Shown piece after piece: positions 661 to 5,265 of a DNA stretch of 5,265 nucleotides. The notes under the pieces were generated by a model, which worked only from the letters and a program-made list of their open reading frames with translations, had not been told where the DNA came from and made no database searches. The stretch is taken from NCBI GenBank assembly GCA_022545745.1, contig JACZQL010000153.1, positions 1-5,265 of the forward strand, in the 5' to 3' direction. The position numbers and the translations under genes were made by a program. Position 1 is the first letter of the stretch, and every line of letters starts with the position of its first letter. This stretch comes from Deltaproteobacteria bacterium. GTDB lineage: Bacteria; Desulfobacterota_B; Binatia; UBA9968.

Positions 661-760
661 CACTTAACCGCAGATTAACGCGGATAAGGATTTGGACATC
701 TCACCTGCGGAGACGCAGAGACTAAACTGCAAAGCGCATAGAGCATGGCGCAAAGAGCGA
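661..760 (+). repeat. intergenic modular repeat, copy A (half element)
   Basis: The copy begins with TTAACCGCAGATTAACGC (664-681), identical over these 18 nt to copy C at 4522. It continues through a 'GGATTTGGACATCTCACC' stretch to GCGGAGACGCAGAG (707-720), which parallels copy B at 1930-1962. It then carries a GCGCATAGAGCATGGCGC-type module (734-751). The same module appears, reverse-complemented, just outside copy B at 2173-2192. No right-hand inverted arm (GGTTAA) is found before the next gene, so this is a truncated or one-armed copy. Confidence 0.85.
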
Positions 761-1842: not shown

Positions 1843-1883
1843 GACTCCGCCAGAGGACGTACCAGACTTTGGCTAAGCCAAGG
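1843..1883 (+). repeat. stem-loop module shared with copy D
   Basis: The block at 1843-1877 matches 5231-5265 at 30 of 35 positions and starts with the identical 17-nt GACTCCGCCAGAGGACG. It folds as GCCAGAG (1849-1855) against CTTTGGC (1867-1873), with one G-T pair and an 11-nt loop. It overlaps a second small palindrome, TTGGCT/AGCCAA (1870-1882). Here it lies outside the left arm of copy B. In copy D it lies inside the element, so the family is mosaic. Confidence 0.7.
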
Positions 1884-1978
1884 TGTAAAGAATTATTAAC
1901 CGCAGATTCACGCAGATTTACGCAGATAAGGATTCGGACATTTCACCGCAGAGACGCAGAGTACGCTGAGGGAAGAAT

Positions 1979-2012
1979 TTTTGCCCAATCGGGAGACGGC
2001 GATTGGGCAAAA
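1979..2012. repeat. central hairpin 1 of copy B
   Basis: A perfect 13-bp stem (1979-1991 with 2000-2012; inner part TTGCCCAATCG against CGATTGGGCAA) closes an 8-nt loop, GGAGACGG (1992-1999). The loop is complementary to the loop of hairpin 2 (see 2037-2070). Confidence 0.85.
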
Positions 2013-2036
2013 GAGCTAGTCTTTAAAAGAGCTATG

Positions 2037-2070
2037 TTTTTGTTTGTCGTCGTCTCCCGACAAACAAAAA
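2037..2070. repeat. central hairpin 2 of copy B
   Basis: A perfect 13-bp stem (TTTTTGTTTGTCG at 2037-2049 with its reverse complement at 2058-2070) closes an 8-nt loop, TCGTCTCC (2050-2057). Only the innermost TCG/CGA pairs and the loop match hairpin 1 (inverted); the rest of the stem is unrelated in sequence but equally perfect. It has the same total length as hairpin 1 (34 nt). Confidence 0.85.
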
Positions 2071-2200
2071 TGAAACTCTCTGCGCCCTCTGCGCCTCTGC
2101 GGTGAGACTCTTAAAGGGTTCTTTCTCTGTGTTCGTCTGCGTGGGTCTGCGGTTAATTTCTCCTAACACCTTGCGCTATGCTCTTTGCGCTTAGCCGTTT

Positions 2201-4499: not shown

Positions 4500-4636
4500 G
4501 TCTAAATTCTTAGGAAAAGACTTAACCGCAGATTAACGCAGATACAAATTCTTATGCCCTTCGGGCATTTTTCGGCCGTTTCGACCGAAAACAAACCTGT
4601 GCCCGTCTGCGTCCATCTGCGGTTGTCTGCGGTTAA
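4500..4636. repeat. intergenic modular inverted repeat, copy C (full, compact)
   Basis: The left arm, TTAACCGCAGATTAACGC onward (4522-4543), is paired with a right arm (about 4604-4636) made of three tandem 'GTCTGCGG'-like units ending GGTTAA. The span of 115 bp between the TTAA ends is less than half that of copy B. The centre again contains two successive hairpins (4554-4568 and 4569-4591), unrelated in sequence to those of copy B. Similarity to copy D extends left of the arm (TAAATTCT...GAAAA, 4502-4519 compared with 5154-5170). It lies between the divergent dinB and oxidoreductase genes. Confidence 0.88.
4554..4591. repeat. paired central hairpins of copy C
   Basis: Hairpin 1 is ATGCCC (4554-4559) against GGGCAT (4563-4568) with a TTC loop. 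Hairpin 2 follows directly: TTTTCGG (4569-4575) against CCGAAAA (4585-4591), with an inner C-A mismatch and two more CG pairs. They sit side by side with no spacer, unlike the 24-nt spacer of copy B. I see no clear loop-loop complementarity here. Confidence 0.75.
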
Positions 4637-4674
4637 AAAATTATAAATTTTCCGTCTCCATCTGACATCAGAGG

Positions 4675-5153: not shown

Positions 5154-5265
5154 TAAATTCTAAAGAAAAACACTTAACCGCAGATTTTCGCAGATTAACG
5201 CAGATAAAGACTCGGTCATCTTACCGCAGAGACTCCGCCAGAGGACGGATCAGCATTTGGCTGAG
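5154..5265 (+). repeat. intergenic modular repeat, copy D (cut by window end)
   Basis: The left arm TTAACCGCAG (5174-5183) is followed by three CGCAGATNNN units at a 10-bp period. Then come a 'GACTCGGTCATCTTACCGCAGA' region parallel to copies A and B, and the GACTCCGCCAGAGGACG stem-loop module (5231-5265), shared at 30 of 35 positions with 1843-1877. The module pairs GCCAGA (5237-5242) with TTTGGC (5256-5261). The right half, if present, is beyond the window. Confidence 0.82.

Follow-up and report, generated by a model that had tools for sequence, protein, structure and literature searches.

REPINs, as described in the available part of Bertels and Rainey (2011; PMC3116915), are inverted doublets of short palindromes, and the REP/TIRYT repeats in the available part of Di Nocera (2013; PMC3733652) go together with RAYT transposases. 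On what these parts of the two papers report, they are the nearest described kinds that we found to the element analyzed here. Like REPINs as described there, it consists of short palindromes in inverted pairs, is present in many copies at separate sites and appears to spread non-autonomously. Unlike them, it has no linked Y1 gene that we could find and no GTAG/CGTC tag, it carries tandem heptamer arms outside each hairpin, and the gene linked to it is of the PD-(D/E)XK type.

Miniature inverted-repeat elements (MITEs) offer a second comparison. As is generally known for MITEs, there are gene-less copies whose ends match those of a relative with a gene, many such copies, and empty sites within the family. 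Unlike in MITEs, each end is made up of tandem heptamers and a covarying hairpin in place of a plain terminal repeat, and the enclosed gene, coding for a GxxExxY protein, is that of no known transposase. The twin hairpins are probably the two ends of a small GxxExxY-type mobile element, of which this locus holds a gene-less copy.

Twin hairpins at the apex of a fold-back element

The window, that is, the whole stretch of 5,265 nucleotides that was analyzed, carries genes for a DUF6941 protein, an alpha/beta hydrolase, HemE, a Y-family DNA polymerase and a pyridoxamine-oxidase-like protein. The element is intergenic, with the hydrolase and hemE genes convergent on either side (Table 1). The initial annotation described two hairpins with 13-bp stems and complementary 8-nt loops placed 24 nt apart, and a script scan for perfect hairpins of at least 10 bp with loops of 3-12 nt confirmed this arrangement and found just these two in the window. 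The inverted match of the core in 13 of 14 positions (1989-2002 against 2047-2060) was also recovered. Read on the − strand, the loop of hairpin 2 is GGAGACGA. When both hairpins are aligned in the same orientation, the TTTT ends, the TCG/CGA closing pairs and the loop GGAGACGR are common to the two. Thus, the description of the outer stems as quite different applies to the middle six columns on each side and does not extend to the ends and closing pairs, which are identical. Such structures are infrequent: 80 control loci (844,199 bases) held 15 perfect hairpins of at least 13 bp, and among the only two adjoining pairs of at least 10 bp found in these loci there was no neighbor pair with complementary loops.

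Table 1. Coordinates of the repeat features in the window
Feature	Position	Strand	Description or basis
Hairpin 1 (class 1 end)	1979..2012	+	13-bp perfect stem; 8-nt loop GGAGACGG at 1992-1999
Hairpin 2 (class 2 end), inverted	2037..2070	−	13-bp perfect stem; loop TCGTCTCC at 2050-2057 on the + strand
Inner spacer, 24 nt	2013..2036	.	Position where some related elements hold the GxxExxY gene (compare L247/L188)
Whole fold-back element	1879..2173	.	Arms 1879-1932 and 2120-2173; hairpins at the apex; fold z −14.3
Left inner arm, tandem CGCAGAG (TTCACCGCAGAGACGCAGAGTACGCTGAG)	1942..1970	+	Repeat listing
Right inner arm, inverted CGCAGAG units	2077..2105	−	Repeat listing
Left outer arm, tandem CGCAGAT (TTAACCGCAGATTCACGCAGATTTACGCAGA)	1896..1926	+	Repeat listing
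Right outer arm, inverted CGCAGAT-like units	2126..2156	−	Repeat listing
Second, simpler gene-less element, CGCAGAT arms only	4522..4636	.	Inverted repeat; z −6.8 for 4515-4640
One-armed composite copy: CGCAGAT arm, linker, CGCAGAG-like arm	664..715	+	Direct repeats
Composite arm close to the window end	5174..5233	+	Direct repeat

The + strand of the whole element folds, as RNA, into a single long hairpin in which the two cores pair as one duplex, and on the − strand of the 92-nt piece the twin hairpins are preferred. The initial annotation had suggested that the loops could form a kissing contact. As the purpose of the complementarity, such a contact is not supported: any two copies of one hairpin that stand inverted have complementary loops, no loop-loop contact is needed to account for them, and it is as a duplex that the + strand fold pairs the cores.

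The fold-back at 4522-4636 seems to be of one kind with the element that carries the twin hairpins, in a simpler dialect. By eye, it holds two short inner hairpins, with loops TTC and CCGTTTCGA.

A recurrent hairpin family with covarying stems

A covariance model made from the two window hairpins alone (R1) was searched in 395 genomes of the phylum to which G003, the nearest relative, belongs. Matches were obtained in 17 genomes at E 0.1 and in 15 at E 1e-3 or below (best E 8e-9), and a single genome had as many as 17 scored copies; the two weakest genomes, G185 and G252, in which 6 of the 13 positions are paired, are doubtful. The window hairpins themselves score 50.0 (hairpin 1) and 50.1 bits (hairpin 2), both being R1's own source. 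Searched with the same filters, which had found the 17 genomes, the 46 genomes of other named loci gave no match; an empty answer of this kind carries little weight by itself, but it counts against our explanation. One of the 46, G290, belongs by its handle to the phylum of G003. By eye, two classes of ends recur, class 1 (..CCAATCG) and class 2 (..TTTGTCG or TTTGGCG), and one end of each class is present in the window and likewise in G489.

The initial annotation proposed that a conserved loop core with variable, fully paired stems reflects selection on structure, and that the loop match would be the fossil of a local inversion if the core were to occur once or if other copies lacked compensatory stem changes. 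The core recurs in other genomes, and compensatory stem changes are plentiful. In an alignment fitted to R1, with 104 distinct rows drawn from 150 of the 177 R1 matches, standard pairs fill 97.2% of the pair cells (70.9% when shuffled), 389 cells are double-changed (112.5 when shuffled), and the covariation score is 0.738, as against 0.210 for shuffled and at most 0.163 for slid alignments. Double compensatory changes were seen at all 13 stem pairs. A second scan took arm-anchored GGAGA sites with no requirement for pairing; fixity of the loop is there by construction, GGAGA being the search anchor. Among its 218 sites, 90 had 10-13 pairs and 128 had nine or fewer, and the closing CG/CG pairs were near-invariant; in the analysis labeled A3, some sites were scored on both strands. 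Exchanging the right stem arms between sites with unlike stems reduced the mean from 12.2 to 7.4 pairs.

The loop had been expected to stay fixed while the stems covary. The stems do covary; the loop is conserved without being invariant. It begins with GGAGA in 41 of the 48 R1 matches listed. When no loop criterion was applied, the window and the R1-picked loci gave 76 distinct perfect hairpins directly following an exact arm heptamer, and GGAGA was present in 57 of the 76 and the GAGA core in 64; alternative loops include TGAGAGG and CGAGATAC. In the same set, 32 hairpins have exactly 13 bp and 8 nt, and most others have 11-14 bp with 6 or 8 nt.

The mismatches in the inner stem bear on the level at which the structure acts. 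G.T (18) and A.C (20) were equally common, so that selection at the RNA level is not favored, and we infer that the hairpin acts as DNA. A structured RNA, either trans-acting or placed at transcript ends, would agree with the strong RNA folding and with a site between convergent genes. Against it stand the G.U pairs, which do not exceed A.C in the inner stem, and the T tracts, which by eye are on the 5′ side of the stem whichever strand is read, an arrangement that terminators do not have. Furthermore, no Rfam family reached its curated threshold, either in the window, where the best match (E 0.26) scored far under it, or in seven element loci. We regard an RNA element as very unlikely.

The equal numbers of G.T and A.C mismatches are also compatible with a DNA-level process such as replication template switching, which, according to the available part of PMC8794818, can create and repair perfect stems in a single event. 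The stems would then be kept perfect without structural selection, and the loops would match as the remains of a decayed long palindrome. As the sole explanation this is highly improbable, given the narrow geometry of the 76 hairpins, the frequency of GGAGA among them and the near-invariance of the closing pairs. Template switching could nonetheless operate together with selection and may help to keep the stems perfect.

Some hairpins of the family carry insertions. In G349 (L120, L204), the right-hand hairpin has a loop of 32 nt, with the insertion right after GGAGACA and the stem mostly intact. In G278, the two copies at L159 (2962 and 7907) have a common insertion, about 46 nt long, at the hairpin's 3′ foot. 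An unrelated repeat was noticed in a Terriglobia MAG (L030, 162-238), where two direct 27-nt hairpins have CCACGGTCA stems and unlike loops.

Arms and hairpins form halves that face each other

The recurrence of inverted pairs, which the initial annotation had named as a sign of support, holds for nearly all neighbors: among 46 adjoining hairpin pairs within 250 nt, 43 point inward, with an inner spacing of 9-167 nt, none points outward and three are direct. Of the 140 hairpins, 138 are preceded by an arm heptamer no more than 30 nt away on the 5′ side (an exact one in 125), and none is followed by one in the next 15 nt on the 3′ side. The position of the arms and the counts of inward orientation together indicate that each half consists of an arm plus a hairpin and that the two halves face each other. 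Counting against our explanation, 51 hairpins have no partner within 250 nt.

This layout resembles that of REPINs, at least as the accessible part of PMC3116915 presents them, and raises the possibility that the palindromes are spread by a RAYT or TIRYT transposase (Y1 HUH). In the portion of PMC3733652 available, RAYT genes have long inverted flanking repeats, some of which share GGGGWSAS, a motif that CGGGAGAC fits in seven of eight positions, and Y1 genes are present in 12 of the 15 hairpin genomes. No such gene was found, however, in the hairpin genomes G278, G426 and G448. Searched at the same threshold as the GxxExxY loci of the same genomes (see below), none of 30 Y1 loci, out of 90 matches, had an R1 hairpin, which speaks against the proposed recognition of the loop core by a transposase, as far as the Y1 class is concerned. 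The presence of Y1 is also unlinked to that of the hairpin (14 of 17 hairpin genomes and 256 of 378 others, p 0.29). As to the foot tag GTAG/CGTC, GTRG occurs within 8 nt on the 5′ side in two and CGTC in none of 140 hairpins, and the 3′-side complements in two and one. Spread by a Y1 transposase therefore seems quite unlikely.

A GxxExxY gene lies between the hairpins of some related units

Comparison of ORFs of at least 90 aa across the hairpin loci gave one recurrent product between hairpins, GxxExxY, which matches the family models TIGR04256 (E down to 5e-47) and PF13366 (PDDEXK_3, of the PD-(D/E)XK type; E down to 7e-45). Two other recurrent clusters, an epimerase/dehydratase and a ketopantoate reductase, look like ordinary neighbors. 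In the 15 strong hairpin genomes there are 29 GxxExxY matches across 12 genomes. R1 hairpins (E 1; weakest listed, E 0.0023) are found at nine of the 29 loci, or eight of 28 genes, and the Fisher test on hairpins in GxxExxY loci took 8 of 27. GxxExxY is present in 137 of the 395 genomes of the phylum, namely in 14 of the 17 hairpin genomes and in 123 of the 378 others (p 5e-5, kinship uncorrected).

The unit of G489 has the order arm, class 2 hairpin, GxxExxY gene, class 1 hairpin, arm. Positions 2039-2106 of the window match, at 87% identity, the arm with its hairpin immediately upstream of this gene (L188, 2683-2751), and positions 1940-2006 are 87% identical to one end of a hairpin element that adjoins a GxxExxY gene in G333 (L127/L185). 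Between the window ends, the gene is missing and 24 nt are found in its place. Several observations count against our explanation: in G333 the gene adjoins a complete gene-less pair and is not inside it, at L238 a hairpin is present on a single side of the gene, three of the 15 strong hairpin genomes (G300, G391 and G448) gave no GxxExxY match, and the copy-rich G278 has one GxxExxY gene, of another arm dialect.

Among 21 aligned GxxExxY proteins, an Asp and a Glu are each conserved in 20 and a Lys is invariant; we take the D and ExK residues to be the catalytic motif of PD-(D/E)XK enzymes. By fold, GxxExxY bears a weak likeness to Cas4 and is a putative Cas4-like nuclease; by sequence, the comparison with solved structures gave one match at chance level. 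Unlike Cas4-type nucleases (SSO0001, 4ic1), GxxExxY has about 120-140 residues and lies within its own inverted repeats. The G489 protein (L247) has Gly at residue 67, where 20 of the 21 proteins hold Asp; judging by this substitution, the gene copy in the unit most like the window may be dead. Under the names GxxExxY, PDDEXK_3, PF13366 and TIGR04256, the open-access literature yielded no functional study and no treatment as a mobile element, and what is available of PMC8934634 apparently does not treat GxxExxY as part of such an element. The arm strings gave nothing in the open-access literature beyond apparent chance matches.

Arm dialects follow the GxxExxY protein

GxxExxY was found in 11 of 46 further genomes, at loci titled as Planctomycetota or a class of it, Acidobacteria, Omnitrophota, Thermodesulfovibrionales, a cyanobacterium and Kuenenia. 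Flanking inverted repeats with a score of at least 18 were present at 12 of 24 loci of GxxExxY set 1 and 16 of 24 in other phyla, and at none of 33 UroD and one of 21 Y1 loci. Perfect hairpins of 10 bp with any loop occurred in the flanks of nine of 24 set 1 loci, three of 33 UroD loci and two of 23 Y1 loci, and at none of the 24 GxxExxY loci of other phyla; the perfect hairpin would thus be a feature of a clade. Both the lack of perfect hairpins in other phyla and their occurrence beside control genes count against our explanation. For set 1, 24 of 29 loci were used, leaving out L255, L260, L264, L265 and L266 (fragments or close neighbors), and for set 2, from other phyla, 24 of 26, leaving out L316 and L318 (halves of one broken gene). 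The Y1 controls were 23 of 30 loci, those at contig ends being omitted, with 19 testable in one flank test and 21 in the repeat-score test; the UroD controls were the 33 of 80 loci longer than 13,000 bases, with the gene end taken as 7005.

The heptamers at GxxExxY arms come in dialects, among them CACGAAG, CGCAAAG, CRCAGAC, CRCAGATT and ATCCGCG. The CAGATT dialect is also found at the GxxExxY genes of L305 and, by eye, of L257 and L261, and each of the two dialects in the window's arms is thus one that occurs next to GxxExxY genes. In a tree of 40 proteins, 37 of them labeled by dialect, the arm dialect tracks the protein, with 14 changes as against a mean of 24.1 and a minimum of 20 in 1000 shuffles. 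The labels were set by eye before the tree was known (those of L238, L251, L252, L253, L257 and L261 from their flanks), and the tree leaves out L245, which has an internal stop.

One orthologous site, bordered by the same pair of genes, holds a unit with CAAAG arms in G257 (L243) and one with CAGAC arms in G228 (L245). The GxxExxY gene of G228 is broken, and the two proteins are 49% identical. The protein of G228 is closest to two other CAGAC proteins (70 and 68%), and that of G257 to the protein of L241 (69%), a locus with a mixture of CAGAG and CAAAG in its arms. In the CRCAGAC clade, the gene-side hairpins of G275 (L244 and L256, the latter by eye and with an imperfect stem) share the loop AAGTC and have unlike stems, which suggests that hairpin loops are clade-specific.

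Copies at unrelated sites and empty sites

In G278 and its close relatives, 21 copies align over their full length and have unlike flanks, and orthologous sites without the insert exist, so that in these genomes the family shows the copies at unrelated sites and the empty sites expected of MITEs. A gene-less insert of G278 is missing in G531, G528 and G535, with 31, 15 and 30 nt in place of 477, 454 and 455; in G533 the gap at this site, the second one of G278, measures 276 nt, which counts against our explanation. The relatives also differ at the first G278 site: the gap is shorter in G534 (120 nt as against 567) and in G531 (205 nt as against 683) and longer in G532, G535 and G529 (1223, 1495 and 1308 nt), where it holds other sequence, which again counts against it. 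A gene-bearing site, occupied in G228 and G257, is 564-585 bp shorter in G154, G196, G199 and G191, whose gap is 150-200 nt as compared with 735-764 in G228. These short gaps indicate that the gene-bearing unit comes or goes whole; the direction of change at the sites, gain or loss, is one that we infer.

Most G278-type copies (L147-L159, L287-L292) have an additional outer terminal repeat of about 25 bp, ACGCCTATTCC..TAGCTCCGCAT. In this subfamily, candidate 9-bp direct repeats matching in at least seven of nine positions flank five of 14 copies, as compared with 0.5% between copies, with several right ends misplaced by the script; L155, L154 and L289 are examples. A DDE enzyme may therefore move the G278 subfamily. 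Extended to the whole family, this would make the hairpins passengers: an ordinary DDE transposase would act on the outer terminal repeats, and the hairpins would serve transcript ends or DNA structure. The outer repeat and the candidate target duplications speak for such an account, but L119 and L151, in the same genome, have no outer repeat, the units of other genomes have their arms directly against unrelated flanks, and both the linkage to GxxExxY and the match of dialects would be left unexplained. We consider it unlikely that the hairpins are passive passengers.

A probable gene-less derivative of a GxxExxY unit

The reading that we prefer, in which the twin hairpins are element ends, starts from units with their own gene. 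A full unit would comprise a tandem heptamer arm, about 9 nt, the 34-nt hairpin, the GxxExxY gene, the inverted hairpin and the inverted arm. The window shares with such units the inverted tandem heptamer arms and the hairpin classes of the gene-bearing copies. Since both ends are present with just 24 nt between them, we interpret the copy in the window as a derivative of the MITE-like, non-autonomous type. The hairpins would act as folded DNA, either as a single strand or in a cruciform, their loop would be read by the element's own protein, and the arms would be the binding repeats of that protein. GxxExxY would be the mobilizer, cutting at or near the arms or hairpins and moving the unit in cis or in trans. 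Two observations make our confidence somewhat lower than it would otherwise be: the absence of the conserved Asp from the G489 protein and the longer gaps in several relatives at the first G278 site.

A broader proposal is more tentative, and we hold it as possible rather than probable: GxxExxY units may constitute a new class of very small autonomous elements with no known transposase, in which the protein reads clade-specific heptamers and, in one clade, a DNA hairpin loop, and moves gene-less copies in trans. The proposed autonomous unit would measure roughly 600 bp and consist of an arm, a hairpin in some clades, the gene for a putative Cas4-like nuclease of about 125 residues, a hairpin and an arm. 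A mobile unit with its own dialect of arms and hairpins gives the common GxxExxY family a testable role, and would account for at least some of the intergenic repeats of the CRCAGAG, CACGAAG or CGCAAAG style in environmental bacteria. If it is true that the nuclease moves the unit, this would be a class of mobile elements without a known transposase.

The locus and its nearest relatives

The nearest HemE proteins are 75% identical and come from Deltaproteobacteria MAGs, followed by those of Candidatus Binatia (71-72%). When the fold-back was searched in nine genomes near by HemE, CGCAGAG-type arms were found in two, G003 and G004; the 25 copies listed have short apices and lack twin hairpins. 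The paired core is missing from the HemE-nearest genomes G001-G007, which counts against our explanation. Paired-core matches turned up in G120 and G063, just two of 145 relatives of G003, and R1 finds no hairpin there; the single core at four places in G001 and G007 amounts to partial R1 matches. The paired-core pattern was not found in viral contigs, nor the fold-back region among phage records.

A further repeat, CTCCGCCAGAGGACG..TTTGGCTRAG, adjoins the arms at 1842-1877 and 5230-5265 and contains small palindromes. By eye, G004 (L086) has pieces resembling it, and so does G003 (L003) downstream of its hemE gene.
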